53,726 bases of DNA. Origin: a virus. Position numbers and translations under genes: made by a program. The DNA is taken from the IMG/VR virus record IMGVR_UViG_3300025645_000097, positions 1 through 53,726 of that record; one strand, 5' to 3'. A model generated the notes under the pieces. It had not been told where the DNA came from, did not search any database, and saw only the letters and a list, made by a program, of their open reading frames with translations. Shown in pieces: positions 2,487-49,481 of this stretch (position 1 is its first letter; the number at the start of each line of letters is the position of its first letter).

Positions 2487-2695
2487 CGGCCCCTCCGATC
2501 CAGGCGGTTCATCATCTTACGGTGCCGCCTATCACCCTTCGCCTGTGCGACGACGAACAGGCTGATTAGGGACATCAGGGGCCAAAGCCACCCCATCGAG
2601 ATCGCAATGAGGATCAGAGAGAGCAGCGAAAACCCGACCCGGCCAACAAAGAGCGGTCCGATGAACGGGAATATGAAGCTAAAAAGGTAAATCAT
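2483..2695 (-). CDS. Small two-pass membrane protein
   Basis: A 70-residue protein with two hydrophobic segments, about residues 2-17 (IYLFSFIFPFIGPLFV) and 21-50 (GFSLLSLILIAISMGWLWPL and onward), and a strongly basic C-terminus. It starts at an ATG with a GAGGAGG SD, coupled by ATGA overlap to the upstream HTH gene. It may act in the inner membrane, for instance in superinfection exclusion or as an anti-holin; the sequence does not decide. Confidence 0.65.
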   Translation of the reverse strand: MIYLFSFIFPFIGPLFVGRVGFSLLSLILIAISMGWLWPLMSLISLFVVAQAKGDRRHRKMMNRLDRRGR

Positions 2696-2943
2696 TTGCG
2701 AGCCTCCTCGGGCAATGGTGTCTTGTTCAACAGACGCTCGGGCCAGTCATCGGGCCGGTAGCCTGCCAGGTACGCCCTGTAGAGCCGCACAACGCGGGTA
2801 GCAGGCGGTCGGTGGGTCGAGTGCCCCGGCGTGCTTTCCATGCGGTAGATCGCCTTGGTGTCCGCCAGGTCGAGCATCTGCGCGGCCTCGGCGGGGGACA
2901 GCCCAAGAGATTCCCGGGCCGCCCTGAGTTCGTCGTGGTTCAT
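2692..2943 (-). CDS. XRE-type HTH DNA-binding protein
   Basis: An 83-residue Cro-sized protein. Residues 4-40 (ELRAARESLGLSPAEAAQML and following) fit an XRE/Cro helix-turn-helix, where SPAEAAQML would be helix 2. It is coupled by ATGA to genes on both sides. The extra C-terminal helix may be for dimerisation. A phage regulator in an early operon is the natural reading; its operator is not identifiable from sequence. Confidence 0.7.
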   Translation of the reverse strand: MNHDELRAARESLGLSPAEAAQMLDLADTKAIYRMESTPGHSTHRPPATRVVRLYRAYLAGYRPDDWPERLLNKTPLPEEARK

Positions 2944-4265: not shown

Positions 4266-4282
4266 TTCATCTTTTGGGTGAA
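4266..4282. promoter_or_regulatory. 17-bp palindrome, operator-like
   Basis: TTCATCTTTTGGGTGAA, one mismatch from the TTCACC-N5-GGTGAA consensus, lies between the divergent leftward and rightward promoters. A regulator bound here could affect both. Confidence 0.65.
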
Positions 4283-4302
4283 AAAGTATTTTGCCGCCAA
4301 AA

Positions 4303-4343
4303 TTCACCTTTCAGTTGACAGTCCGGGAATCACGAGGCTACGA
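4303..4343 (+). promoter_or_regulatory. Rightward early promoter with overlapping operator half-site
   Basis: TTCACCTTTCAGTTGAC (4303-4319) overlaps a perfect -35 TTGACA at 4315-4320. With a 17-base spacer the -10 would be CTACGA (4338-4343), which is weak. The same CTACG-type -10 is seen in the leftward replication promoter at 49410. It would drive the genes starting at 4380. Confidence 0.6.
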
Positions 4344-4750: not shown

Positions 4751-4767
4751 TTCACCTGAAAGAGGAA
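4751..4767. promoter_or_regulatory. Operator-like half-site before secreted-protein gene
   Basis: TTCACCTGAAAGAGGAA matches the 17-bp element in its left half; the right half is replaced by GAGGAA, which can serve as SD. The same string recurs at 5174-5190, before the next gene. Confidence 0.55.
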
Positions 4768-5173: not shown

Positions 5174-5190
5174 TTCACCTGAAAGAGGAA
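5174..5190. promoter_or_regulatory. Operator-like half-site with SD
   Basis: TTCACCTGAAAGAGGAA is identical to 4751-4767. Here GAGGAA is the SD for the GTG start at 5197, and TATACA follows it, a possible -10 box. A duplicated leader cassette for two consecutive genes. Confidence 0.55.
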
Positions 5191-7211: not shown

Positions 7212-7251
7212 TTCACCTTTTATTGTACTATTCCCTTTTCAGGTGTATCCT
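7212..7251 (+). promoter_or_regulatory. Rightward promoter with two operator-like sites
   Basis: -35 TTGTAC (7223-7228), a 17-base spacer and -10 TATCCT (7246-7251) precede the metallophosphoesterase gene. TTCACCTTTTATTGTAC (7212-7228) overlaps the -35, and TTCCCTTTTCAGGTGTA (7231-7247) covers spacer and -10. Both are variants of the 17-bp element, each with one good half. Binding here would block RNA polymerase. Confidence 0.7.
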
Positions 7252-8587: not shown

Positions 8588-8623
8588 TTCCTTTTTTAGT
8601 TGAAATTATATCTTTCATGTGAA
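8588..8623 (+). promoter_or_regulatory. Control region of the methyltransferase gene
   Basis: Two degenerate copies of the 17-bp element, TTCCTTTTTTAGTTGAA (8588-8604) and TATATCTTTCATGTGAA (8607-8623), surround a -35-like TTGAAA at 8600-8605. No good -10 at the right distance is visible. The 98-base gap before the methyltransferase is AT-rich compared with the genes. Confidence 0.5.
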
Positions 8624-13015: not shown

Positions 13016-13055
13016 GAATCACTTATTAGGTCAATAATAACCCAATAAGTGATTC
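13016..13055. promoter_or_regulatory. Perfect 12-bp inverted repeat before endolysin
   Basis: GAATCACTTATT (13016-13027) and AATAAGTGATTC (13044-13055) form a perfect inverted repeat with a 16-base loop. It lies between the end of the fibre gene and the endolysin SD. No T-run follows, so it may be an RNA hairpin controlling lysis gene expression or an operator instead of a simple terminator. Confidence 0.7.
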
Positions 13056-15886: not shown

Positions 15887-15922
15887 ATCCCCTTTTGGGT
15901 TAGAGTAAACTTTTCGGTTGAA
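15887..15922. promoter_or_regulatory. Two degenerate 17-bp elements before fibre genes
   Basis: ATCCCCTTTTGGGTTAG (15887-15903) and TAAACTTTTCGGTTGAA (15906-15922) match the recurrent palindrome imperfectly. They fill the 67-base gap between the host-specificity gene and the fibre genes. No convincing promoter boxes flank them, so a block to readthrough is as likely as promoter control. Confidence 0.5.
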
Positions 15923-27416: not shown

Positions 27417-28187
27417 TTAGGTTGTCTGCCCGCGCGCCGCGATGTAGAGGTTTTCGAGTGTCGTACCGGCCTGGAGGATTTCGACGTTGAGGCCGAAGTT
27501 CTGCCACTCCTCGCCTTTCAGCGCGAACTCGCCGTTGGGGCGGAGCGTCACTTTGGGCATGTAGAAGTTCCGGTTGGTGCCAACGCCGTTGTAGGAGATG
27601 AACCGCAGCGCACCAGACACGAGGGACGCACCAGAGGAGACGCGCTCCTGAGTCTGTGCCGCCACGTCGTAGGTGATCTCGACCGCAGCGTCGTCCGCGA
27701 TGCCTGCGCCAGGCATGATGTAGACGCGGCCAAGGGTCAGATCGACCGTGTAGTCCGTGTCAGCGACGTAGGTGGGCGTGCCAGCGGGGCCGGTGACGAC
27801 CACGTTGGTCACGTTCTCGACACCCTCGGGCTTCGCGGCAGTCGTGCCAAGCTGGTAGTAAAGGCCCTGCTTGACCGTCAGATCGTCCTGCTCGCCAACG
27901 GCTGCCGAGATGGTGGCATTTTCCGCAGCGCCGAAGAAGAACAGCGCCAGGTTGTCCTGGTTGATGTCCTCCAGCGTCAGCGCGCCGGTAAAGTCGATCT
28001 GGAGGGTCACTGATTCGTCCTTCACGCGAAGGCCGCGCTCGGAGGAAAAGTGTTCCAGTTCTTGCGTTTCACCGGATACGGAAAAGGCGGGCGTTGCCCC
28101 CAGATACCGTTCGCCGGTCTTGTTTTCGGTGCCAGCCGCGAAGCGATCGAAGTAAATTTCGCCGCGACCCAGAACGAGATTGCTCAT
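27417..28187 (-). CDS. Major tail tube protein
   Basis: A 256-residue beta-rich protein in the lambda gpV position. Typical features are an N-terminal NLVLGRGEIYFDRF, a region with VTLQIDFTGALTLEDINQDN and a final GTTLENLYIAARG. It polymerises into the tail tube. SD GGAGA; a palindromic operator-like site lies 28 bases upstream of the ATG. Confidence 0.82.
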   Translation of the reverse strand: MSNLVLGRGEIYFDRFAAGTENKTGERYLGATPAFSVSGETQELEHFSSERGLRVKDESVTLQIDFTGALTLEDINQDNLALFFFGAAENATISAAVGEQDDLTVKQGLYYQLGTTAAKPEGVENVTNVVVTGPAGTPTYVADTDYTVDLTLGRVYIMPGAGIADDAAVEITYDVAAQTQERVSSGASLVSGALRFISYNGVGTNRNFYMPKVTLRPNGEFALKGEEWQNFGLNVEILQAGTTLENLYIAARGQTT

Positions 28188-28214
28188 AGGAAAGTCTCCA
28201 CTTTAGGGTTAAGG

Positions 28215-28231
28215 TTCACCTTACAGGTGAT
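28215..28231. promoter_or_regulatory. 17-bp palindrome upstream of tail tube gene
   Basis: TTCACCTTACAGGTGAT has both half-sites nearly intact. Flanking hexamers (TCAAAA and CCTTAA on the minus strand) are poor promoter boxes, so here it may act as a block to transcription rather than as a promoter operator. Confidence 0.7.
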
Positions 28232-28238
28232 TTTTGAT

Positions 28239-28751
28239 TCACGCAAACGGATCATCGCGGTCCTCCACGAATGTTAGCGTGACGGGGAGCCAGAAAAACG
28301 CATTGTCAGAGACAACCGCGTCTGGCGGGCGAACGACACCCTGGCCGACAGAGAGCGACATGATGCGCTCTCCGAAGCCCAAAATGTCGAAACCTCGGGA
28401 TTGAGGACGCCCCGGGGGCGTCTTTGACCGCTCGACTGCCAGACGCTTTTGAACGTCAGCGAGGAGCCGGTAAGCGGGGTCGGTCGGGTGCGTCCGGTCG
28501 TCTTGGACAAAACCCTGGATCAGAACGGTCAGGTTGACCTTGGAATCGGGTGAGCCTTCCGGGGATGCCATATCCTCCGGCATCTGGGGAGGTTCGTTGA
28601 TGGTGACGCACGGCAACCCGTCCTCCTCGGTGAGGACCAGGCGTCCGCGATAGACCACCCCGGCCAGGTCGAACTGGTAGCCGTTGGCGATCGTGATCTC
28701 CTCAAGCGCCGCAGTCAGCGCCTTGAGAACCGTGAGTCGGAAAGGGTCCAT
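28239..28751 (-). CDS. Tail terminator/minor tail protein (gpU-like)
   Basis: A 170-residue protein with an N-terminal helix (LTVLKALTAALEEI), strands around VVYRGRLVLTEEDGLPCVTI and a C-terminal strand with FWLPVTLTFVED. The pattern fits tail-terminator proteins that cap the tube. The position between the Z-like and V-like genes agrees with lambda. TAATG overlap with the upstream gene. Confidence 0.68.
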   Translation of the reverse strand: MDPFRLTVLKALTAALEEITIANGYQFDLAGVVYRGRLVLTEEDGLPCVTINEPPQMPEDMASPEGSPDSKVNLTVLIQGFVQDDRTHPTDPAYRLLADVQKRLAVERSKTPPGRPQSRGFDILGFGERIMSLSVGQGVVRPPDAVVSDNAFFWLPVTLTFVEDRDDPFA

Positions 28752-29374: not shown

Positions 29375-29748
29375 ACCGCCCCCGGCAGGGGCAGCGCAAG
29401 TTCGGTGATCCGGGCTTGCGTCATGCGGGTGACTTGGGTGGTGATGGTGATGCCGTCGCGGGGCATGACGACCTCGACCTCGTATGCCTCATCGGCAGCG
29501 AGGGAGAAGATCATTCCGCGCTTAGGCTGAATCTCGTCAGCGAGTACCACGATCTCAGGAACCGTCATTATCCGCTCCGCCGGGGCATAGTCGAATCCTG
29601 CCATGTCCCCGAAAGCCTGGGTACGGTCGTGAACTCGAACCGTGCAGTCCGTGTTGGACGGCACATCGAGATCGACGTACACGGCGGGAACCGAAAGGGC
29701 CGTATGCAGCGACAAGCGCGAACGGTTTCTGAGATCGCGGATAGACAT
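29371..29748 (-). CDS. Head-closure/head-tail joining protein (gpFII-like)
   Basis: A 125-residue beta-rich protein (IVVLADEIQPKRGMIFSLAA, ITITTQVTRMTQARI). The position behind the capsid and in front of the tail genes matches lambda gpFII, a stopper at the head-tail joint. It shares one base with the upstream stop (TAATG). Confidence 0.68.
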   Translation of the reverse strand: MSIRDLRNRSRLSLHTALSVPAVYVDLDVPSNTDCTVRVHDRTQAFGDMAGFDYAPAERIMTVPEIVVLADEIQPKRGMIFSLAADEAYEVEVVMPRDGITITTQVTRMTQARITELALPLPGAV

Positions 29749-30026
29749 TAGCCCAGCGGGTCGTCGTCTGCTGTGCCGTCTGCGCCTGTGACGGCAGCAG
29801 GTGTGACTACATCGTCAGCGGCAGGCGCGGCGGGAGTCTCCGCCTTCTTGGCGTCCTTCTTCGCGGGGGCCTTCTTGGACTTCTCCTCGGAGATGACCAG
29901 GACGGCTTTCTGGGCGATCAGGTAATCGGCTTCATCGCCGGTTGCCTCGAACTCAGTGCCCGGTTCGACCCGGACCTGCTTGCCCTTTTCCTTGCGATAT
30001 ATCGCGTTGACTGCTTTCAATTTCAT
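29748..30026 (-). CDS. Small connector-region protein with acidic DDDPLG tail
   Basis: A 92-residue protein. The first 45 residues look like a small compact domain (AIYRKEKGKQVRVEPGTEF), then an Ala/Pro/Lys-rich linker (KKAPAKKDAKKAETPAAPA) and an acidic end ADDDPLG. It occupies the lambda gpFI position. The tail resembles the EGDDDPLG end of the protein at 48800, a variant of the DDLLG peptide. SD AGAGGAG. Confidence 0.62.
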   Translation of the reverse strand: MKLKAVNAIYRKEKGKQVRVEPGTEFEATGDEADYLIAQKAVLVISEEKSKKAPAKKDAKKAETPAAPAADDVVTPAAVTGADGTADDDPLG

Positions 30027-30040
30027 GTTCTGGCTCCTCT

Positions 30041-30085
30041 TTTAGCCGAAAGGTGAAGCTGCCCCGACAGTGAAGCCGGGGCAGC
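30041..30085. terminator. Hairpin plus operator half-site after capsid gene
   Basis: GCTGCCCCG (30058-30066) and CGGGGCAGC (30077-30085) form a perfect 9-bp stem with a 10-base loop just after the capsid stop. TTTAGCCGAAAGGTGAA (30041-30057), one good half of the 17-bp element, follows directly on the minus strand. No U-run follows, so it may be an RNA stability hairpin or attenuator. The capsid gene needs more product than the genes after it. Confidence 0.6.
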
Positions 30086-30093
30086 AGGGTTGC

Positions 30094-31176
30094 TTAGAGC
30101 GACACCGGAACCGCTTTCACGGTCGCGTTGGTGTTGACCGGGATCATCAGCGGCGCGGACTGCGACATGATGAAACGTGCGGAGGGGTCGTTCTCGTCCC
30201 ACATCTTCGAGAAGATGTCGGCGGGCTGGATGTCAGCCGCCGCGTCCAGGATCGCGCCGAACGCCTTCACACCGTTGACAGCGCGGGATGCCAGAAGCAC
30301 CTCGTTCTTCTTGAGGATGTCAACGGTGCTGCCGTTGGACTTGAAGGTGTTGCCGATGCCGGAGACCAGCCACACGCGGACGGAGCCGAAGCCGCCAACC
30401 AGCGTGAACGGGTTCAGCGGGTCTTTCTCGATCAGGCCGAGGTTCAGGTTCACGGACTCGTTGCCGCGAAGGTCCTTATTCAGCTTCGCCTGGACATCTG
30501 CATCGGCCATAAAGGCAGCGTATGCCTTGGAACCCATGAGGATGTCCGTGGGAGCCGCGCCGAACTCGGCAGAAGCAGCCAGATCGTACCACGCCTGGAT
30601 GTCGTCCCACGCGGAGATACCGGCGTCACCCCACTGCGAACCGCCCGCCTTGGTGATCGTGTGACCGGCATCGCGGCCAAAGTCGATCGTCACGGCCTGA
30701 GCAGGCGTGCCTGCGTCAACCGCGTAGTTGATCGTGATCGAGCCGTCGATGACGGAGCGCGCGCCCATGTACTCCCAGAGGCGGGTGATCGCGTCACGGT
30801 GGAAACCCGTGATCTCGATGACCTTGCTGTTGTAGCGGGCCTCGGGGGTCATAAGCGCAAGACGCTTTGTCAGTTCGCCGGGTTGCAGCTTGAGGGCCTG
30901 ACCGGGACGAACCGCGTCCTTGGGTTTGGTGTAGGCGGGCTTGAAGGATTCAATCCGCTCACCGACGCCCTTGTAGATCGGGCGGCCCGGCATGTTCGGC
31001 AGCATGAACGGCGCGATCTCGCGGGTAGCGTCGATCTTGTCGAACATGATTTCTTCCTGCTCGGACATGTGCGAGTTGGGGTAGAACATGTCCAGCCACG
31101 CCGACGTGCGGACGGTCTGCCGCTCATCGAACATGACCTGGTACAGGTCCATCGGGGTGTAAATGTCGAGTGCCAT
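30094..31176 (-). CDS. Major capsid protein (lambda gpE family)
   Basis: A 360-residue protein of the phage major capsid protein E family. Typical features: a short N-terminal arm (DIYTPMDLYQVMFDERQTVR), LDMFYPNSH, a central domain with RPGQALKLQPGELTKRL and the late AVNGVKAFGAILDAAADI. No protease-cleaved scaffold domain is attached. SD GAGAGGA. A perfect copy of the 17-bp palindrome lies 22 bases upstream of the start. Confidence 0.9.
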   Translation of the reverse strand: MALDIYTPMDLYQVMFDERQTVRTSAWLDMFYPNSHMSEQEEIMFDKIDATREIAPFMLPNMPGRPIYKGVGERIESFKPAYTKPKDAVRPGQALKLQPGELTKRLALMTPEARYNSKVIEITGFHRDAITRLWEYMGARSVIDGSITINYAVDAGTPAQAVTIDFGRDAGHTITKAGGSQWGDAGISAWDDIQAWYDLAASAEFGAAPTDILMGSKAYAAFMADADVQAKLNKDLRGNESVNLNLGLIEKDPLNPFTLVGGFGSVRVWLVSGIGNTFKSNGSTVDILKKNEVLLASRAVNGVKAFGAILDAAADIQPADIFSKMWDENDPSARFIMSQSAPLMIPVNTNATVKAVPVSL

Positions 31177-31197: not shown

Positions 31198-31214
31198 TTC
31201 ACCCAGAAGGTGAA
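31198..31214. promoter_or_regulatory. Perfect 17-bp palindrome upstream of capsid gene
   Basis: TTCACCCAGAAGGTGAA is a full match to the consensus. A further GGTGAA follows at 31219-31224 in the same direction, making overlapping sites. On the minus strand a weak TAGCCA could be a -10. Confidence 0.75.
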
Positions 31215-32970: not shown

Positions 32971-34627
32971 CGGATTCTCCGCTCTCAACTTGGGCTGCGC
33001 CTTCAACGGAGCCGGGTGCATCGGCCTCGCCGTCGTCCCCTGGTGTGAGGTTCAACTCCTCGTCCATCGCCATCTCGCGGGCACGCTGCCGCTTGACGGT
33101 GCGCCAGTCCTGGCCGAGACGCCCGATCTCGTACTCCTCGGTGGTGAGGTTGTACTTGAGACGCAGCACGGCGGCCTGGGTCTCTTTCAGTTCGTCGATC
33201 TGGCCTTTCGCGGCACCGAGCCACTCACAATGGGAGAGCGCGTCGAAACGCTGCGCGTCATAGAGCCAATTCGGGTCGCGGGCCTGCCGGGGCAGAGACG
33301 AGATCATGCCCTTGTTGACCGCTTCCTCCAGCCAGAGCCGGTAGATCGAGGAGGCAAAGCGGTCCGCGACGGTACGCTTGAGCGCGTTCATCCGCTTCCA
33401 GGTCTCGCTCATCGCGGCCCGGGCGCTGGAGTAGTTGGTTTTGCTGTAGTCGTGCGATAGCTGCTCGTAAGAGACGCCGAGGGACGCCGCGATGTAGCGC
33501 AGAAGCGATTGCTCGAACTCCTGGCCCAGCGGGCCGCCCTTCCCGGCGGGCATCATGTTCAACTTGGTGCCCGGGAACAGGTGCGGAATCTTCACGCCGT
33601 CAAGCTGGAGGTTCTTCGCGCCGCCGGAGTAGTCCGCGATCTGGCCGAGGTACTGTTCGACGTACTCACCGAGGGCCTGGCCGGGGGAGTCCGTGCCGCC
33701 CAGGGTGGCGAAAGCCTCAACCGATGGCAGATCGGATTCGATCGCCGCCGCGTATGTCGCGTTGACCACCGCGTTCTGGAGCGTCACGTCCCGGAACTGC
33801 TTGGTGATCCGCATTTCCTTGAGCGCCGAGACCATCGCCGCGATACCGCGCGTCTGGTCGGGTCGGAACTGCTCGAAGATGTGGATGATCTGGAGGCGGC
33901 CCCACGGCTTGCGTGCGTTGACCGCGCGCCAGCGGTGGTTGTTCATGTTCCGCCAGTCGCTCGGGTGCGCCACGCGGATGTGATACCGCTTGGCCGCGCC
34001 GTAGCGGTCCTTTTCGATCCCGGCCACGAGGTTCGGGTCGTTGAGGTACTGCGGAGGCGAGGAGAGCCTGTCCGTGTCGATCATCTGGATCGCCGTCTGG
34101 AACGAGCGGCCAAGGCCGCCGCGCATCCACTCGACCGAGGCCAGGACCTCGCCGCAAGCGACATGCGTGCCGACTGCCAGGCGAACCAGTTCCGTGAATG
34201 TGTTATTGCGGGAGGAGTCCACCCAATTGTCGGGGCTTTCCGCCCAGAGCGTGAACCGCTGCTCGACCTCCTCCTGGAACTCGTCGGCCCAGGTCTCGTC
34301 GAACTCGCCACCCAGGATGCGTGTCATGGGCTTCGCGTTGAGCGCGTACAGGCCGCCGACGATGTTGTCTTGGTGGATGACCTGGCCGCCGCGCACATAG
34401 CTATCGTTCCGCAGAACGTCTCGGGCGCGTGCGTCAAGCTGGCCCTTCGCGGGCACGATGTCGAGGTCCGCCGAGCGGAGCGTCGGGTGCCAGAGGGCCA
34501 GGGTCCGCTCGTTGCGGCTGGCCGCGTCGAAAGCGCCGCCGACTAGGGCAGACTCAGCGGGTGCGGCGGAAGGGAGATTTGCATCATCCAGATCGCCCAG
34601 GAGATAGTGGGATTCGCGATCCAGCAT
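32963..34627 (-). CDS. Portal protein (lambda gpB family)
   Basis: A 554-residue portal of the lambda type. Characteristic pieces are LRNDSYVRGGQVIHQDNIVG, LPSVEAFATL, SLGVSYEQLSHDYSKTNYSS and ARAAMSETWKRMNALKRTVA. Twelve copies form the ring through which DNA passes. The acidic C-terminus (GESDD) overlaps the protease start. It starts by TAATG overlap with the gpW-like gene. Confidence 0.9.
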   Translation of the reverse strand: MLDRESHYLLGDLDDANLPSAAPAESALVGGAFDAASRNERTLALWHPTLRSADLDIVPAKGQLDARARDVLRNDSYVRGGQVIHQDNIVGGLYALNAKPMTRILGGEFDETWADEFQEEVEQRFTLWAESPDNWVDSSRNNTFTELVRLAVGTHVACGEVLASVEWMRGGLGRSFQTAIQMIDTDRLSSPPQYLNDPNLVAGIEKDRYGAAKRYHIRVAHPSDWRNMNNHRWRAVNARKPWGRLQIIHIFEQFRPDQTRGIAAMVSALKEMRITKQFRDVTLQNAVVNATYAAAIESDLPSVEAFATLGGTDSPGQALGEYVEQYLGQIADYSGGAKNLQLDGVKIPHLFPGTKLNMMPAGKGGPLGQEFEQSLLRYIAASLGVSYEQLSHDYSKTNYSSARAAMSETWKRMNALKRTVADRFASSIYRLWLEEAVNKGMISSLPRQARDPNWLYDAQRFDALSHCEWLGAAKGQIDELKETQAAVLRLKYNLTTEEYEIGRLGQDWRTVKRQRAREMAMDEELNLTPGDDGEADAPGSVEGAAQVESGESDD

Positions 34628-34830
34628 TACATAAGAACCCGCATTGGGCCGGGATTGACGCTCCCGACCTGGTTTTCGAGGCGCTGAATGTAGGCGAGCA
34701 ATGCTTGCCGATTCGCGGCGGTGTACTCGACACGCTCGCCGTTCTGATCGACGTAGACGCGCGCCTGTTGGCCCGTTACCAGCAAGTGATATTGGGCTTT
34801 CGCGTCCGCAAGTTGTTCTGCAAGAGTCAA
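34627..34830 (-). CDS. Head-tail joining protein (gpW-like)
   Basis: A 67-residue helical protein (TLAEQLADAKAQYHLLVTGQ, EYTAANRQALLAYIQRLE), the size and pattern of lambda gpW, which binds the portal and completes the head. The position between terminase and portal is conserved. It lies 40 bases downstream of a promoter inside the terminase 3' end. Confidence 0.78.
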   Translation of the reverse strand: MTLAEQLADAKAQYHLLVTGQQARVYVDQNGERVEYTAANRQALLAYIQRLENQVGSVNPGPMRVLM

Positions 34831-34839
34831 GTCGGTCTC

Positions 34840-36933
34840 CTAGCCTAGCTTCTCAGCGAGCGTGCGTAGACTATATTCACCTTTCGGGTGAATTTCAAAC
34901 CGTTTGTTGGTATCTCCATACACCATGTCGTTGTCGTCCCATTCCTCGGCCCAAGATGGAGGGGCTGACCAGTCGATATGCTGCATCCTGATCCGGCTGG
35001 AGTGGCAGAGCGCCAAGGCGTAGACGAGGAGGTCCCAGCTTTCGTTGCGGCTCTTGGCCGGGTTGACCCAGCCCTTGCCGGTCTTGGTCTCTGCGCAGAG
35101 TTCGACGTACCACCAGTCCGGTAGCCACTCGGGGAAAAACACCATCCCGCCGCCCGGCTCCTCCCGGGCGAGCATGTTGTTCACCATGTCCTTCGCCTGG
35201 TTGGTGTTAATCATAAGCACCGGGACCTCGCCGCGTGCCGAGGCGCGCCGGTCTTTCCGCTCCGCGTTGGGGTAGTCGATCCGCACCAGGGGCGCGGAGG
35301 CGGTCGTGCCGCCCTTGAGAAGCTGCACCCGGCGGTGATAGTTCTTTCCGTCCGCGCGAAGCTGCCGCCAGAACTCGTAAGCGTTCGCGGTCACACCTGC
35401 CGAGCCGCCGGAGTCACAGCAGAGCATCCGTATCTGCATACGCCGCCCGCTCTCATCGCCAAGTTCGTACTCGGCCTTTAGGACCAGATCGACAAGCTGA
35501 TACCAGTCCTCGACGTAGGCCGCCGGATTCAGGGGATACGGGTCTCCGTCCTCATCGACCCGCTTGGACTTTCTGATCTTGAAGCGGTCGATCACCACGA
35601 CATCGCCGTGGGGCCGGATACCGTGGACCTGGACCTCGAACCGGCTTTTCTGCACGTCCACCGACGCCACCAGGAAACGGACATCCTCGGGCACCACTCG
35701 CTCACCGAGGCGGGCCTGGGCGCGGGCTTTCAGTTCCTCCGGCAACCGCTCGGACTCGATCCCGGCGGGGAGGTAGGGCAAGCCCTGGTCGGTGTTGACC
35801 GTGGTTTTCAGGGCCTCCTCGGAGCCGGTGTTCTCGAACTCCTGGATGGCCTTGAGGTACTTGTGCGTCATGTCGGTCCAGTCAGCGAACGCCGCCGCCG
35901 GACCTTTGAGCCAGAAGGACGCCATCCGGGATCGCATGGGCGTCCCGACGATCTCGCCGGTTTCCATGTCCATCTTCTCGCCGTCCCGGAGCCAGAAGCC
36001 GCGCTGGTTCATCCCGCGCTTGCCGGGGGTGTCGGACTCGTCGTGGTTGCTGTCACGGTAGGCGTGATTGCAGTGTGGGCACCGCATGACCACCTCCTCG
36101 GCGGCTGCCAGGAGATCGTCGGTGTCGGTGTTCCACTCGAACAGGCTGAAATCCGGCTCGAAGGGCTGCCCGCAGGAAAGGCAGGGCCAGTACCAGCGCC
36201 GCCGGTCTCCCCGGTTATAGAGAGCCAGGATGCCGGTCGTCGGCGGAGCCTGGTGCGGAGAGGACGGCATCCACCGGCTGTTCTCGGTGATCCGAGAGGG
36301 CGAGGACTCGGCGGCGCACATGCCGAACCGCCCGAATGTTTTCATACGCTGGACAGCCAGGTCGAAGGCGGAACCCTCGCCGCCGATGTCCTCGGGCATC
36401 CGGTCGTAGTCCGCCAGCCAGAGCCGTCCGATCGGCTTGCCCGACAGTTCGTTCACCGTGGGCCAGGAAAGCGTGTAGAGCATCCCGGACGTGAACCGGC
36501 TGGAGTACGTTGACTGGTTGTGCTTGCCGGGCAGGAGCCGGTCGCGAATTTCGGGGTTGTCCCGGTACAGTTTCTCGACCCGGCGCTGATACCAGTCGCG
36601 GGCGGAGGACTGCGATTTGTCGATGTGCATGAAATCTGCCGGATCACAGATCGCGGAGTAGGACGACCAGTTGAGGCTCATGTCAGATTTGCCGCACTGC
36701 GCCGGACCGACGAACACCATTTGCGTAAAGTCGAGGGAGGTCAGCATCTCCATTGGCTCGACAAGGTAGGGCGTGGCGCTGTTCTTGTACTTGCCGACGT
36801 AGCTGCCGGGGTTGTTGATGTATCTGTACTTCTCGGCGGCCTCGGCCACGCTCAGACGCTCGGGTGGGCGTACCGCCTCCGCAGTCGCCAGCACCATGTC
36901 CTCTAGTGTCTGGAATCTAGTCATCCTGGGCAT
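34840..36933 (-). CDS. terL: Large terminase subunit (lambda gpA-like)
   Basis: A 697-residue packaging ATPase/nuclease. Walker A is VFVGPAQCGKSD near residues 73-84; Walker B-like WLADYDRMPEDI; then a zinc-ribbon (CLSCGQPF ... CPHCNHAY) found in GpA-type terminases; the nuclease half follows. It cuts concatemers at cos and drives DNA into proheads. The start at 36933 overlaps the upstream gene by 17 bases; an in-frame ATG three codons later is possible. Its last 20 codons contain a complete promoter with operator. Confidence 0.92.
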   Translation of the reverse strand: MPRMTRFQTLEDMVLATAEAVRPPERLSVAEAAEKYRYINNPGSYVGKYKNSATPYLVEPMEMLTSLDFTQMVFVGPAQCGKSDMSLNWSSYSAICDPADFMHIDKSQSSARDWYQRRVEKLYRDNPEIRDRLLPGKHNQSTYSSRFTSGMLYTLSWPTVNELSGKPIGRLWLADYDRMPEDIGGEGSAFDLAVQRMKTFGRFGMCAAESSPSRITENSRWMPSSPHQAPPTTGILALYNRGDRRRWYWPCLSCGQPFEPDFSLFEWNTDTDDLLAAAEEVVMRCPHCNHAYRDSNHDESDTPGKRGMNQRGFWLRDGEKMDMETGEIVGTPMRSRMASFWLKGPAAAFADWTDMTHKYLKAIQEFENTGSEEALKTTVNTDQGLPYLPAGIESERLPEELKARAQARLGERVVPEDVRFLVASVDVQKSRFEVQVHGIRPHGDVVVIDRFKIRKSKRVDEDGDPYPLNPAAYVEDWYQLVDLVLKAEYELGDESGRRMQIRMLCCDSGGSAGVTANAYEFWRQLRADGKNYHRRVQLLKGGTTASAPLVRIDYPNAERKDRRASARGEVPVLMINTNQAKDMVNNMLAREEPGGGMVFFPEWLPDWWYVELCAETKTGKGWVNPAKSRNESWDLLVYALALCHSSRIRMQHIDWSAPPSWAEEWDDNDMVYGDTNKRFEIHPKGEYSLRTLAEKLG
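34870..34898 (-). promoter_or_regulatory. Promoter with 17-bp palindrome as spacer, inside terminase 3' end
   Basis: On the minus strand -35 TTGAAA (34893-34898) and -10 TATAGT (34870-34875) are separated by exactly 17 bases, which are the perfect palindrome TTCACCCGAAAGGTGAA. It reads toward gpW, portal and head genes. It lies wholly inside the terminase coding region (FEIHPKGEYSL). A protein bound to the palindrome would occlude RNA polymerase. Confidence 0.8.
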
Positions 36934-37213
36934 CCATCCGGCACTGGACCGCGTAGTCCCACATCGAGACGGGGCCGTGGCCCAGGTCGTAGCCGTGGCC
37001 CTCGACCGGGTTCCCGCAGCAGCAAGTCTCGCGTTGCAACTTGATCTCCTCTGCCGTCACCCCCGATTCCGCGATCAACGCGACCTCGATGCGGTCCCGC
37101 TCGGAGCGCGGGTCGTGGTACGGGGACATCGGCATCGGGCAGTGGCCGATGCAGTGTGACCAGTCGTCCCCGCTGATCGCGCCGCACTTGGGGCATTTGA
37201 ACTTAGAAGTCAT
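36917..37213 (-). CDS. Small zinc-binding protein between terminase genes
   Basis: A 98-residue Cys-rich protein: CPKCGAISGDDWSHCIGHC and RETCCCGNPVEGHG. Two CxxC-type knuckles suggest zinc binding. Start ATG 37213 with SD AGGA; it overlaps the end of the small terminase gene. It may belong to packaging, or be an HNH-like remnant without the catalytic residues. Confidence 0.65.
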   Translation of the reverse strand: MTSKFKCPKCGAISGDDWSHCIGHCPMPMSPYHDPRSERDRIEVALIAESGVTAEEIKLQRETCCCGNPVEGHGYDLGHGPVSMWDYAVQCRMDAQDD

Positions 37214-37868
37214 CGAGGTCGGTTCCTTCAATCTCGCCAAGCTGCGATAGTGTGGCACGTTTCTCGGGCATCTCGACGAGCGAGCGGTGCAGATCGTGCT
37301 GGAGCGCGTCCACCATCGTCGTCAACTCTGCCCGGACCTCGGTTGAGAGGGAGTGCGCCTCCGACACCTGGTCGATCCAAAGCTGGGTCGTGGTCTTGAG
37401 GCGCTGGAACGTCTCGCCCAGGACCTCCAGCACGTCCTCCGTTTTCCAGAGATCGCCAGCCTGCGCGGCCCACTTTTGGGCTTTCAGCTTTGCGTCCCAG
37501 ACATCCTTCTGGAGTGCGGTGGGCAGATCATCGGTGCCCATCTTCTTGATGGCCTCGGCAGCGTTCATCTTGGGCGTGACGAGGTATTCGAGAGCCTGCC
37601 GGAAATCGTAGAGCGGAGTGTTGCCCCGGTGCCGGGCGATCGGCGCAAGGTTGGCGAGTCGCTTGGTGACGAGTTTTCGATCTCGTTGCAGCACCTCCGC
37701 AAGGAACGTGATGCTCACCGGCTGGTATAGCGCCTGGACTACCGCCGCGTCGGCTCGACCGACGACGCCCACAGAAGGTTTACCCGACGCCGGTTTCGCG
37801 GCGCGGGGCTTTCGCTTTTTCGGTTGTTTTGGGGCCGGACCAAGCAGGTCCTCAAAGTCGTCGTTCAT
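37203..37868 (-). CDS. terS: Small terminase subunit (gpNu1/DUF1441-like)
   Basis: A 221-residue protein. Residues 50-95 are a winged helix (VSITFLAEVLQRDRKLVTKR, LYDFRQALEYLV), followed by a helical segment like DUF1441/gpNu1 proteins that bind cos and recruit the large subunit. The N-terminus, DDFEDLLGPAP, is the LLG-AP peptide shared with GapR and the primase, followed by a Lys/Pro-rich tail. The C-terminus is acidic (TDLDDF). SD GGAGGAG. The promoter/operator pair lies just upstream. Confidence 0.8.
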   Translation of the reverse strand: MNDDFEDLLGPAPKQPKKRKPRAAKPASGKPSVGVVGRADAAVVQALYQPVSITFLAEVLQRDRKLVTKRLANLAPIARHRGNTPLYDFRQALEYLVTPKMNAAEAIKKMGTDDLPTALQKDVWDAKLKAQKWAAQAGDLWKTEDVLEVLGETFQRLKTTTQLWIDQVSEAHSLSTEVRAELTTMVDALQHDLHRSLVEMPEKRATLSQLGEIEGTDLDDF

Positions 37869-37891
37869 TTGCAGTCGTCTCCTCCTGGCAA

Positions 37892-37920
37892 GTGTAATTC
37901 ACCCAAAAGGTGATTGGCAA
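37892..37920 (-). promoter_or_regulatory. Late promoter with palindrome as spacer
   Basis: On the minus strand -35 TTGCCA (37915-37920), a 17-base spacer ATCACCTTTTGGGTGAA (37898-37914) and -10 TTACAC (37892-37897) precede the small terminase gene. The layout is the same as at 34870: the operator fills the spacer. It is the natural start of the late operon. Confidence 0.72.
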
Positions 37921-37981
37921 ACTAAAAGTTGAATATGCAGTCGATATAGGCGAGAATGGTCATGTCGCTTGTGTGGCACCT

Positions 37982-38035: not shown

Positions 38036-39274
38036 TCATTTCGCGTTCTCGGCCACGTCGTCGAGCCAGTCCGCGTATGCTTGCATCATCTCTTTCCGGC
38101 CATCGAGATAGAGGGCCTTGTTGTAGGCCGCCCGCACCTCGTCCTTGCTCGTGTGCGCAAGCTGCCGCTCGATCCAGTCCCGGTTCCAGCCCTGCTCGTT
38201 CATGGTGGTAGAGAAGGTCGTGCGGAACCCGTGGTGGCAGTGTTCCTTGCGGGTGTCGTAGCCGAGCCGCCGGAGCGCGGAGTTCAAGGTGTTCTCGGAC
38301 ATGTAGCGATCCGGGTATCGGGGCATCGGGAACACCAGGTCGTTGTCTCCCCGGCAGAGCGCCATCGCCTCCAGGATTCCCTTCGCCTGCCGGGACAGCG
38401 GAACCAGGTGGTCCCCCACCTGGCCCTTCATCCGATCTTTGGGCACCGTCCAGAGTTCGAGGTCCAGGTCGATCTCGCTCCAGCGCGCGCCGCGCAACTC
38501 CCGCGACCGCAGGAACGTGTAGGCCGAGAGCAGCAGCGCCGCGCGGGTCTGTTGGCCTGCCGTGTCGGGGTAGAGCCGGATCGACCGCATGAGGCCGCCC
38601 ACGTCCCGGGCGCTCGTCAGGCCGGGATGCTCGCCGCCCTTCTTCTTGACGACCGCCCGCGTGACCATCCGCGCAGGGTTCCACTCGACCAGGCCCAGGG
38701 CGATCGAGTAGTCGAACATCTGGCCCAGCTTGCGGTGGATGTCCTTGGCCTTCTCGATCTTGCCCTCCTCCTGGACGCCCTCAACCAGGGCCAGGATTTC
38801 GGGCGGCTTGATCGAGCCGATGTCCCGACCGTGCAGCACGCCGTTCGCCAAGCTGCCGAGGTTCCAGTTCAACTTGTTCAAGGTGGCCTCTGCGATCCCC
38901 TCCTGCATCCGCTTGCGGATGAACTTGGCCGCGATCACCTCGACCCGGCGCTCCTCGGGGACCTCCTCGTCCTCGCCCGCTCTCCGGGGGCCTGTCCTCC
39001 GGTCCGTGCGGATCGCCGTGGTGTCCCGGGGGTCGATGCCGCGCTTGACCCTGGTGTTGATCTCTGCCGCTCCGAGGCGCGCGTCTGCCAGCTTCACCTC
39101 CGGGAACTCCCCGAGGGTAGCCATGCGCTGCTGGCCCCGGAACCTGTAGGCTTTCACAAAAACCTTCGCCCCGGTCGGTCGAACCTCCAGGAACAGACCA
39201 GCGCCGTCTGGCATCCGGTACTTTTTCGGTTCGGGCGCGGCTTTCTTGATCTTCTGTTCGGTCAGTGCGGTCAT
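38036..39274 (-). CDS. int: Tyrosine recombinase integrase
   Basis: A 412-residue phage integrase. The N-terminal 90 residues (KKYRMPDGAGLFLEVRPTGA, KVFVKAYRFRG) are the DUF4102-type arm-binding domain. The catalytic domain has Arg in TFLRSRELRGARWSEID (about residue 256), HHGFRTTFSTTM (HxxR, about 348), LAHTSKDEVRAAY with the nucleophile Tyr near 383. It recombines attP with a host tRNA gene. ATG 39274 has an AGGAG SD; the upstream in-frame start was rejected. attP lies right behind its start. Confidence 0.92.
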   Translation of the reverse strand: MTALTEQKIKKAAPEPKKYRMPDGAGLFLEVRPTGAKVFVKAYRFRGQQRMATLGEFPEVKLADARLGAAEINTRVKRGIDPRDTTAIRTDRRTGPRRAGEDEEVPEERRVEVIAAKFIRKRMQEGIAEATLNKLNWNLGSLANGVLHGRDIGSIKPPEILALVEGVQEEGKIEKAKDIHRKLGQMFDYSIALGLVEWNPARMVTRAVVKKKGGEHPGLTSARDVGGLMRSIRLYPDTAGQQTRAALLLSAYTFLRSRELRGARWSEIDLDLELWTVPKDRMKGQVGDHLVPLSRQAKGILEAMALCRGDNDLVFPMPRYPDRYMSENTLNSALRRLGYDTRKEHCHHGFRTTFSTTMNEQGWNRDWIERQLAHTSKDEVRAAYNKALYLDGRKEMMQAYADWLDDVAENAK

Positions 39275-39314
39275 CCTGTTGCTCCTGAGTGTTGGATTCA
39301 CCTTTCAGCGTTGG

Positions 39315-39343
39315 ATAGTTGGATATTTCACCCGAAAGTACAA
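39315..39343 (-). promoter_or_regulatory. Possible integrase promoter with operator
   Basis: On the minus strand -35 TTGTAC (39338-39343), 17 bases, -10 AACTAT (39315-39320). TTCACCCGAAAGTACAA (39327-39343), with one intact half-site, covers the -35 and most of the spacer. TTCACCTTTCAGCGTTG (39297-39313) is another half-site. Both overlap integrase arm sites. Confidence 0.5.
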
Positions 39344-39569
39344 GGATCATCCAACGGTTATCCAACATTTTTGTTGCTCAGAACGACGATTTTAGGGAAG
39401 ATTTAGACCCGCAGATCAGCTAACTCGCTGAATTTACACCATTTTATATGTAGCCGATAGGTGATTATTCAACTGAAACTTGGAAAATGGTGCCCGGGGG
39501 CGGAATCGAACTGCCTAAAATCAGTTATTTTGAGCGTTTTTCAGGGCTATCCAACAGTTATCCAACATA

Positions 39570-39586
39570 TTCACCTATTGGATGAA
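39570..39586. promoter_or_regulatory. 17-bp palindrome next to attP
   Basis: TTCACCTATTGGATGAA matches the consensus at all but one base of the half-sites. It lies between attP arm sites and the end of the repressor gene. Confidence 0.6.
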
Positions 39587-39619
39587 TATTCCTCTTTTGG
39601 TGTTGGATAGCCTTCAATC

Positions 39620-40318
39620 TTAGTCTTGCGCGGCCAACTCGCTAAATTCGCGCAGAGGCTCGATCGAGCCGCCGCCGTCCTTGAACACGCGGCCGCTTTC
39701 CCGGTGCAGCGTGACGACGGAGTACCCGCCGAGCGACTGCCGTTCCACGTTGGTCACGTCCAGTACGTTGACGCACACGGTCCCCGTGACCTCCGGCCCG
39801 CGCTCCTGGATCACCATGAGGATTCGCGAACTGCCCACCGGCTCCGGCACGACGCAGGTGTAGGTGTCCTCGTCTCTGACGTTTGCGACCTGGACCAGCG
39901 CCGTGAAACGGGTGCCGCCCATGTTGACGCTCAAGTCCCAGGCATCATCCTCGCCGGGGAAAGAGAAGCGCCCGCCGTTCATCTCGACAAGACCCGCAAC
40001 CAGGAGGACCGCGCCAGACGCGCTGGTGGCCTTCTCCTGGACGATCCTGGCCTTCTGCGTTGGCCGCCTGCCCAGATTCAGCCAAACCTCATCCACACTC
40101 AAGACCTTGGCGAGTTTCTGGACGTTATCATTCCGGGGTTTGGCCTCACCGGCAAACCACTTGCTCATGGTGTTGGGCGATACTACACACTTGGCCTCGG
40201 TTTCTAGTTTGCGCCGGAGCCAGCTTTGCCTACCGTGCGGGGTGGGAGGAGCCAGCGGGTGCCCCTCGACAGCTTGCGCCAGTCGAAGCCCAAACGCCTT
40301 TGTTGAATCTTGTGCCAT
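39620..40318 (-). CDS. Phage repressor (XRE HTH, no S24 peptidase)
   Basis: A 232-residue protein. Residues 30-84 form an XRE-type helix-turn-helix (VSPNTMSKWFAGEAKPRNDN, then VQKLAKVLSV). The C-terminal half is beta-rich (GRFSFPGEDDAWDLSV, MGGTRFTALVQVANV) and lacks the Ser/Lys peptidase motifs of CI/LexA repressors. Position beside attP and integrase, and TTTACCTAACGGGTGAT in its leader, make it the best candidate to bind the dispersed 17-bp elements. Induction would then not depend on RecA-stimulated self-cleavage. Confidence 0.78.
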   Translation of the reverse strand: MAQDSTKAFGLRLAQAVEGHPLAPPTPHGRQSWLRRKLETEAKCVVSPNTMSKWFAGEAKPRNDNVQKLAKVLSVDEVWLNLGRRPTQKARIVQEKATSASGAVLLVAGLVEMNGGRFSFPGEDDAWDLSVNMGGTRFTALVQVANVRDEDTYTCVVPEPVGSSRILMVIQERGPEVTGTVCVNVLDVTNVERQSLGGYSVVTLHRESGRVFKDGGGSIEPLREFSELAAQD

Positions 40319-40322
40319 CGCT

Positions 40323-40339
40323 TTTACCTAACGGGTGAT
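40323..40339. promoter_or_regulatory. 17-bp palindrome in repressor leader
   Basis: TTTACCTAACGGGTGAT lies between the repressor promoter and its ATG, 5 bases upstream of the start codon. Binding would give negative autoregulation. Confidence 0.7.
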
Positions 40340-40352
40340 TTAACCTCTTTCA

Positions 40353-40382
40353 TCTATATGTTGAAAGATCACCCAAGGTCAA
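40353..40382 (-). promoter_or_regulatory. Repressor promoter
   Basis: On the minus strand -35 TTGACC (40377-40382), an 18-base spacer and -10 TATAGA (40353-40358). The start point would lie near 40345, so the leader is short and includes the operator at 40323. A degenerate operator (ATCACCCAAGGTC...) overlaps the -35. Confidence 0.68.
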
Positions 40383-45718: not shown

Positions 45719-45735
45719 TTCACCTAAAAGGTGAA
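45719..45735. promoter_or_regulatory. Perfect 17-bp palindrome after DUF2815 gene
   Basis: TTCACCTAAAAGGTGAA is a full consensus match, 8 bases after the DUF2815 stop. Flanking hexamers (CTGAGT and TACGGG on the minus strand) are poor promoter boxes. It may work as a roadblock rather than as a promoter operator. Confidence 0.75.
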
Positions 45736-46374: not shown

Positions 46375-46391
46375 TTAACCCAAAAGGTGAA
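46375..46391. promoter_or_regulatory. 17-bp element upstream of DUF2815 gene
   Basis: TTAACCCAAAAGGTGAA follows a -35-like TTGAAT (46392-46397, minus strand) in the same place as in the terminase promoters, but the -10 position (AAAAAC) is weak. Confidence 0.65.
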
Positions 46392-47632: not shown

Positions 47633-48723
47633 TACCAGGACAAGCCCGCAGCTTTGAGGATGTTGTCCATCTCAGTCAGGGGGAACTCGGCCCCGCTGCC
47701 GTAGGCTTCCAGGTAGAAGGCGAGACGGGTCCGGTCGGACTGCTTGTAGAGGGAGGTCTGGAACGAGCCGATGTGCGTCCGTGCGTTGTTGAACACGGCC
47801 ATGTGTTTCTGCGCTAGGTCCCCGGCGAGGAACCGCGTCACGATCTCGTGCATCTCCGGGTGCGTGACCCCGAAGCGGATAGACACGTCGAACTGCTTCT
47901 CAGTATCCGGGGCCGAGAGGTGGAAGGTGGCTAACCCGTCGTCGAAATGGTCCACGATGCCGCCCGCCAGGCCCAGATCAGACTGCTCGGCCTGCTGTGC
48001 TTGCGCGATCTGCGTGTCCTGCTCGACGCTGGTGTCGTCCCAGCCCGGCTCCTCGTTCGTGGCGAGTATCGCTTCAACCAGTTCTTCGCAGGCGTGGCTT
48101 ACGTTCTCCGCGCCCCGGATCGCGTTGACCGTGGCAGTCAGCCACTCCGCAGTCTCCTCGTCCAGTTCGCCCTCGTCGTCGAACTGGATAGTCCGGCAGA
48201 AATCCATCCAGTCCGGGAAATCATCCCAGGACGGCGATTCCGCGGGCCAATCCGCGCCCATGATCTGTTCGAGCGTTTCCGCCTCGTCCGCGTCCCGGCC
48301 GAGATCAGACGCCCCACACGCCCCCGGCTCACGCGGAGCCGTGGTCTGGGTCATCGCTTTGACCATCTCGGAGAACTTGCCGGGCACGCTCGGGCGATCG
48401 TCGATCAGGTTGCCCTGGGCCTCGGCGTCCAGCAGGATCGCGCAGCAGGCCATGACGTGCCCGAGGTGATGCACCCCGGAGTCCTCGGCCTCTTGCTCCC
48501 CGTCCCACCAGGAGGCGAGGTGCCGGAAAGCGGCGTTGTAATAGACCGAGGCCGCGACAGAGTTCTCGCGCCAGTTGGTCAGGCCGTACTTGACGACGCC
48601 GTCCCGCATACCGTTGCCGCAGTGCAGAAGCGCGACCACGGGGATTCCGTGGATACCCGGCTTCGCCGTGCCGTAGGCGCTTTTGGGGTTGGAGTCAGGA
48701 AGGGCGAAGGGTTTGCGGGTCAT
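47632..48723 (-). CDS. dATP/dGTP diphosphohydrolase-like protein (DUF5664)
   Basis: A 363-residue protein. Residues 10-110 fit the DUF5664 type: DGVVKYGLTNWREN, YYNAAFRHLASWWDGEQEAE and HHLGHVMACCAILLDAEAQG with conserved Asp/Glu/His metal ligands. Such domains hydrolyse dATP/dGTP in phages. The C-terminal half (LATFHLSAPDTEKQFDVSIR, RFLAGDLAQKH) is of unknown kind and makes it longer than single-domain members. It begins 2 bases after the 17-bp element. Confidence 0.75.
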   Translation of the reverse strand: MTRKPFALPDSNPKSAYGTAKPGIHGIPVVALLHCGNGMRDGVVKYGLTNWRENSVAASVYYNAAFRHLASWWDGEQEAEDSGVHHLGHVMACCAILLDAEAQGNLIDDRPSVPGKFSEMVKAMTQTTAPREPGACGASDLGRDADEAETLEQIMGADWPAESPSWDDFPDWMDFCRTIQFDDEGELDEETAEWLTATVNAIRGAENVSHACEELVEAILATNEEPGWDDTSVEQDTQIAQAQQAEQSDLGLAGGIVDHFDDGLATFHLSAPDTEKQFDVSIRFGVTHPEMHEIVTRFLAGDLAQKHMAVFNNARTHIGSFQTSLYKQSDRTRLAFYLEAYGSGAEFPLTEMDNILKAAGLSW

Positions 48724-48725
48724 CT

Positions 48726-48742
48726 TTAACCTTTCAGGTGAA
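48726..48742. promoter_or_regulatory. 17-bp element directly before DUF5664 gene
   Basis: TTAACCTTTCAGGTGAA follows -35-like TTGAAT (48743-48748, minus strand). Its right edge ends 2 bases before the ATG, and GAAAGG in it serves as SD. Bound protein would block both transcription from above and a start here. Confidence 0.65.
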
Positions 48743-49409: not shown

Positions 49410-49438
49410 ACGTAGCCCACTACATCTTGTGGTTTCAA
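49410..49438 (-). promoter_or_regulatory. Leftward replication promoter
   Basis: On the minus strand -35 TTGAAA (49433-49438), a 17-base spacer and -10 CTACGT (49410-49415) precede the replication operon. The -35 overlaps the operator-like 49434-49450. The leader is about 50 bases. Confidence 0.58.
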
Positions 49439-49481
49439 CCAAAAAGTTATCTTTACGTTTTTGGGTGACGAATGGTAGTAA
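49434..49481 (+). promoter_or_regulatory. Divergent control region with two operator variants
   Basis: TTCAACCAAAAAGTTAT (49434-49450) and TTACGTTTTTGGGTGAC (49453-49469) are variants of the 17-bp element. A rightward promoter is possible: TTTACG (49452-49457), 18 bases, TAGTAA (49476-49481). One bound protein could control replication genes on both sides. Confidence 0.55.

Follow-up and report, generated by a model that had tools for sequence, protein, structure and literature searches.

The IMG/VR virus record IMGVR_UViG_3300025645_000097, a contig of 53.7 kb (53,726 nucleotides; hereafter the window) from a marine bacterial virus, carries some 30 dispersed copies of a 17-bp palindrome, TTCACCT-N3-AGGTGAA (consensus aATTCACCTnnnAGGTGAATt from the refined matrix). 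We consider it probable that the phage's own CI-like XRE repressor uses the palindromes as its operators, and that two of them – one inside the gene for the terminase large subunit (terL), the other ahead of the gene for the small subunit (terS) – lie within sigma70-type late promoters that would be occluded in the lysogen. Both loci had been picked out from the DNA letters alone (the sequence-only reading); here they are set beside the whole operator family, its counterparts in related phages and the repressor.

A dispersed family of palindromes and its probable link to the repressor

The palindromes in the window are not chance. The sequence TTCACCNAAAAGGTGAA, allowing up to three mismatches, was found 15 times (0.2 expected), the pattern TTCACCN5GGTGAA 63 times (20 expected), and in an unseeded palindrome search covering every half-site and gap, TCACCT-N3-AGGTGA came out on top (19 vs 0). 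The matrices used to place individual sites were fitted to their own hits, and a few of the 30 in the window (e.g. those at 2674 and 52874) may be false. Eight pairs of operators in the window stand exactly 19 bp apart, and across six phages this offset is the only peak (38 pairs against a mean of 1.8).

Phages with a homologous repressor have palindromes of the same geometry, about 20–30 per genome (fewer in AH2), dispersed and mostly intergenic: five annotated relatives have 121 sites together, 86 of which lie between genes, though intergenic DNA makes up 5–10% of the genome. The half-sites differ between phages. DSS3-P1 and V16 have TTCAACT..., AchV4, N133 and RHph_X2_30 have TTCAAC..., and SS2019XI has ATCAACA...; in AchV4 and RHph_X2_30 the motif was found unseeded. 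AH2 at one point seemed to be free of operators, a false impression that came from the wrong seed, and its variant operator, AACAACA-N3-TGTTGTT, was found afterwards. How well phages with and without the repressor could be told apart depended on the pattern: a loose one (10 fixed positions, two mismatches) failed to separate them, whereas the exact TCA[AC]C-N5-G[GT]TGA, with other gap lengths as controls, did so better while missing the SS2019XI and AH2 variants.

The half-site sorts with the recognition helix of the repressor: NTMSKW goes with TTCACC, EAVRKW with TTCAAC, and NAMSKW (DSS3-P1) with mixed sites. We therefore infer that the sites are tied to the CI-like repressor, the presumed binder of all operators. 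Its gene (39620–40318, minus strand; phrog_2967 regulator) encodes an N-terminal XRE helix-turn-helix (HTH_3) with matches to TP901-1 CI and P22 c2. Neither Pfam nor NCBIfam gave an S24 match, and a sequence search against solved structures returned nothing significant. In the predicted model (mean predicted local distance difference test score, pLDDT, 83.8) the C-terminal domain (39620–40057) matches the homing endonuclease I-Ssp6803I best (Z 12.7 over 122 residues, root-mean-square deviation 2.7) and also Hjc resolvases (about Z 9): as modeled, it resembles PD-(D/E)XK nuclease folds. Because no catalytic (D/E/Q)-x-K pair could be made out by eye where the alignment of this domain should show it, one possibility is that an inactive nuclease-type fold serves dimerisation.

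Two putative late promoters

On the minus strand, positions 34898–34870 read TTGAAA-17-TATAGT (site 1). A -35 hexamer TTGAAA (34893–34898) and a -10 hexamer TATAGT (34870–34875; backed by the sigma70 scan and by related loci) enclose operator 1, TTCACCCGAAAGGTGAA (34876–34892), which has perfect 6+6 arms, the top matrix score in the window, and a length that makes up the entire spacer. The arrangement belongs to a sigma70-type layout whose spacer is taken up by the operator (hexamers TTGnnn and TAnnnT 17 bp apart, within the 16–18 bp expected) and is the strongest sigma70 match across 33–53 kb (10/12), in a type of scan that by itself is weak evidence (7 found vs 3.1 expected). As the sequence-only reading held, the whole unit lies within terminase coding sequence, the stop codon of terL (34840–36933, minus strand) being at 34840. 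A transcript starting near 34863, as predicted, would carry about 33 nt of leader ahead of the first gene downstream, a gpW-like head-tail adaptor (34627–34830, minus strand; Pfam gpW, phrog_75) beginning at 34830; separate expression of the head genes from terminase via promoter 1 is plausible.

Site 2 lies upstream of terS (37203–37868, minus strand; phrog_141). It had been read as TTGCCA-17-TTACAC, and both hexamers, like those of site 1, do stand where that reading placed them on the minus strand; TTACAC, however, makes a poor -10, fitting TATAAT at only 2/6 positions. The reading we prefer is TTGCCA-18-TACACT (37891–37920, minus strand), with the -35 at 37915–37920 (sequence, promoter scan, relatives), operator 2, ATCACCTTTTGGGTGAA, at 37898–37914 (one arm mismatch; pattern count and matrix), a conserved -10 at 37891–37896, also found in the scan, and a predicted start near 37884. 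Since this usable -10 is one base further on, the palindrome fills the spacer exactly at site 1 (17 bp) and falls one base short of it at site 2 (18 bp), and the claim that it is the whole spacer stands for the first promoter only. A second, weaker operator (37917–37933; matrix and 19-bp offset) is placed 19 bp from operator 2 and overlaps the -35.

Is the layout more than coincidence? Promoter-like pairs were counted around operators in the five relatives (window excluded; 113 segments), with orientation set by the nearest downstream gene. TTGnnn-17/18-TAnnnT occurs 15 times in sense and 3 times in antisense orientation, compared to 3.7 expected when the flanks are shuffled and the operator is kept, and to a frequency of 2.1% at random intergenic places. 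For the strict spacer-filling form (TTG adjoining the operator, TAnnnT at +17/18) the counts are 5 sense and 0 antisense, with 0.06 expected.

The spacer-filling layout is found again at both loci in distant relatives, and to this extent comparison supports what was claimed of the two late loci, a repressor-type operator within a promoter-like unit. The site-1 layout recurs at the same terL codons in L010, L011, AchV4, L105, L116/L117, L125 and L136, the -10 at the eight related terL loci being TATGAT, TATAGT or TACACT. Before terS, or before a small AlpA-like gene preceding it, TTG adjoins the operator in L009–L014, DSS3-P1, RHph_X2_30, AH2, L107 and L109. Relatives that keep the unit at these loci have a TerL 53–92% identical to its best query. 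In 54 terL relatives a repressor gene was not detected (the stretch fetched reaching at most about 10 kb on each side of TerL, and several loci being fragments), and not one of these has an operator at the site-1 position. Two of these 54, L034 and L065, have TTG-17-TATGAT/TATAAT at the site-1 spot with no operator; because they carry the promoter-like codons alone, their sequences suggest that the promoter can be present without the operator.

We also considered that the site-1 palindrome merely reflects the protein code of the TerL C-terminus, where partial conservation of the residues RF...YD does make a contribution. This was rejected: in AH2 and L138, where the operator lies after the terL stop, similar residues are coded by other codons (TTC, and TTC GAC or TAC GAC). 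To judge by these loci, codon choice tracks operator position, not amino acids. Within the window terL the site-1 codons are rare (TTT 14%, GAA 19%, GGT 15% and AGT 2% of the respective residues).

A model of repression and its alternatives

According to our hypothesis, repressor dimers would bind the operators, often as two neighboring dimers 19 bp apart. In the lysogen, repressor at sites 1 and 2 would cover the -35/-10 region and exclude RNA polymerase; with the repressor lost, both sites would open and host sigma70 polymerase would transcribe the late genes directly – from about 34863 the head-tail adaptor, portal and head genes (promoter 1), from about 37884 the terminase genes (promoter 2). 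Likewise, or by blocking elongation where they lie at start codons, the remaining operators would keep the early, replication and structural genes off. Homologous elements within long bacterial contigs speak for a lysogenic setting (L086, for instance, lies in a 578-kb Stutzerimonas contig and has operators as well as genes for TerL, portal and capsid), and so does AH2, which is listed as experimentally lysogenization-capable (PMC10269493). We hold it possible, falling somewhat short of even chances, that temperate Casjensviridae with alpha-, beta- and gamma-proteobacterial hosts share this form of immunity: a CI-like repressor, PD-(D/E)XK-like in its C-terminal fold, silencing the whole prophage at 20–30 palindromic operators that include late promoters, one within terL, with no separate antiterminator switch needed.

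Several observations pull the other way, and most of them would suit stoperator-type road-blocks, in which repressor on the sites would chiefly halt polymerase already elongating through gene junctions and neither spot would be a real promoter, TTG and TAnnnT being mostly half-site edges plus AT-rich context. In the five relatives 90 sites have a start codon no more than 150 nt away, and for 47 of these the distance is at most 35 nt; for operators near start codons a road-block is as likely as promoter occlusion. About 25 of the 30 sites in the window lack such a promoter. Only about 7 of about 150 operators in the six phages are spacer-filling – the remainder overlap a -35 or -10 or adjoin start codons – so that operator length equal to spacer length, proposed as a general rule, fails. 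The -35 TTG belongs in part to the outer half-site of a second operator, 19 bp upstream, so that operator packing alone could place it: the 17 bp and the 2-bp gap may owe as much to packing as to the design of a promoter. In four close relatives (DSS3-P1/V16, L012, L013 and L014) the site-1 operator and TTG are retained and the -10 has decayed. The separability of promoter and operator in L034 and L065 cuts both ways, counting against promoter occlusion as well as against road-blocks. Against road-blocks, too, are the strong bias of sense over antisense, the exact register of the -10, and the fact that distant phages conserve TATGAT/TACACT at matching codons. On balance we regard road-blocks as the main function of these sites as unlikely. 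Bearing on lysogeny itself, AchV4 is reported to have formed no stable lysogens in its host (PMC7996906).

The binder could in principle be another protein – Cro-like, an AlpA-like regulator or a late activator – with or without repression. Small helix-turn-helix proteins are indeed encoded nearby (2692–2943 in the window, AlpA-like genes in relatives), and a Cro-like protein such as that of 2692–2943 could share the sites of the repressor, a point against the main reading. Yet where the CI-like recognition helix changes the operator sequence changes too, operators flank the repressor gene, and a dimer filling the spacer takes the place of a repressor, not the usual one of an activator; from this position the late activator was judged unlikely, and another binder in any form is, in our estimate, quite improbable. 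Least credible of all is that the palindromes act as RNA hairpins in translation control or termination. They often overlap a Shine-Dalgarno-like AAGGTGA beside start codons, but on the transcribed strand G.U pairs are not in excess over A.C pairs (43 vs 60), there is no Rfam match, and sites also occur within terL and between divergent genes; this reading was disfavored for its want of G.U bias and of an Rfam match. Promoter occlusion by the CI-like repressor is thus the explanation that we retain for sites 1 and 2.

Further operators and their surroundings

Around the lysogeny genes, two operators just upstream of the repressor start (40323–40365, at 40323–40339 and 40349–40365; matrix) likely provide autoregulation. 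A strong operator lies between repressor and integrase (39570–39586; matrix), and a pair 19 bp apart is upstream of the integrase (39449–39484, at 39449 and 39468; matrix), a tyrosine integrase at 38036–39301 on the minus strand (Pfam Arm-DNA-bind_3, Phage_integrase). The start of this gene is surrounded by four TCCAAC/GTTGGAT repeats (39296–39610), with 23-nt copies at 39349/39549 and 39296/39588, which are probably arm or att sites of the integrase, and operator 39570 sits amid them. The small helix-turn-helix protein at 2692–2943 (minus strand; phrog_14076 regulator) has weak matches to repressor and CII-like families, making it a candidate Cro- or CII-like partner by sequence.

Elsewhere, two operators between divergent early genes (4266–4319, at 4266 and 4303) have DSS3-P1 counterparts at the same junction (10071 and 10107). 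Sequence and matrix place one at an early gene junction (4751–4767), one with the same half-site 6 nt before a GTG start (5174–5190), one just upstream of the open reading frame 29748–30026 (30041–30057) and one 2 nt before the ATG at 48723 (48726–48742). Matrix-defined pairs 19 bp apart are found at 7212–7247, 8588–8623, 13018–13053, 15887–15922 and 49434–49469, the last being kept in DSS3-P1 (55099/55118). Single operators are also found upstream of the major capsid gene, 30094–31176 (31198–31214; pattern, matrix), in the replication gene block, with perfect arms (45719–45735; pattern, matrix), and upstream of a gene resembling those for single-stranded-DNA-binding proteins (46375–46391; matrix). 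A pair before the major tail protein gene (28196–28231) comes with TTGCGT-17-TAAGGT on the minus strand: within 28173–28245 a conserved TTGCGTGA stretch precedes the tail-gene operator and yields these hexamers, and the region is likely a further repressed late promoter in a different register.

The nearest relatives of the window are the Ruegeria phages DSS3-P1 and vB_RpoS-V7; a 23-kb query is 79% identical in nucleotides to Ruegeria phages across 38% of its length, and the window TerL is 79% identical to that of DSS3-P1. Homologous terminase, head and tail genes in common order place it in Casjensviridae. With genes for a tyrosine integrase and for a CI-like XRE repressor, the phage is, on its gene content, of the temperate type. 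Close to the contig end are five short direct repeats CAACTTTGGAGG-CTGGCCGGTCCT (178–302 and 584–615) with a spacing of 28–34 bp, plus one distant copy; they lie beside another tandem-like GC-rich repeat (96–169).

Comparison with known systems

Occlusion of a promoter by an operator within it is itself classical. At lambda PR and PL an XRE repressor dimer binds a 17-bp operator that overlaps the -35/-10 region and has a half-site with TCACC. Lambda has six clustered operators and controls its late genes through Q, whereas the window has about 30, dispersed, with tandem spacing of 19 bp and with putative late promoters among their places. The Streptomyces phage phiC31 has many dispersed 17-bp inverted repeats that are bound by its repressor, and in this the window is probably like it; host, repressor and sequence differ.

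Closer in kinship are AchV4 (PMC7996906) and AH2 (PMC3483164), phages of the same family with homologous repressor and integrase genes. Their papers list cI-like, integrase and other lysogeny genes in the passages searched, and those passages make no mention of operators. The papers searched on repressors of Casjensviridae or with a nuclease fold, on Chi-like promoters and on phiC31 inverted repeats yielded nothing on these operators either, which is no proof of absence. The palindromes supply the likely cis-elements missing from the lysogeny modules described for AchV4 and AH2; with them come an operator code that changes with the recognition helix and late promoters predicted to the exact start site, and together these would help to predict the sharing of immunity among Casjensviridae phages.

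In their dispersal the operators are most readily compared to two systems of genome-wide silencing. The C1 repressor of phage P1 has 22 dispersed 17-bp operators (PMC8546580), and the likeness would lie in one repressor that controls lytic genes from about 20 such sites genome-wide, here about 30. The P1 consensus, however, is asymmetric (ATTGCTCTAATAAATTT), while the window operators are palindromic and paired at 19 bp; and P1 late genes are reached via the activator Lpa, whereas the window operators lie directly in the putative late promoters. The repressor and stoperators of mycobacteriophages L5 and TipsytheTRex (PMC9283540) likewise involve more than 20 sites, in promoters and short intergenic gaps, and the position of cluster A stoperators in gaps near gene starts is shared by the operators of the relatives (the intergenic and start-proximal counts given above). 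Those stoperators are asymmetric 13-mers, bound by monomers and oriented with transcription, in contrast to the 17-bp palindromes of the window and the classical XRE domain of its repressor. What the window appears to hold is a palindromic, proteobacterial counterpart to silencing of the stoperator and P1 type.

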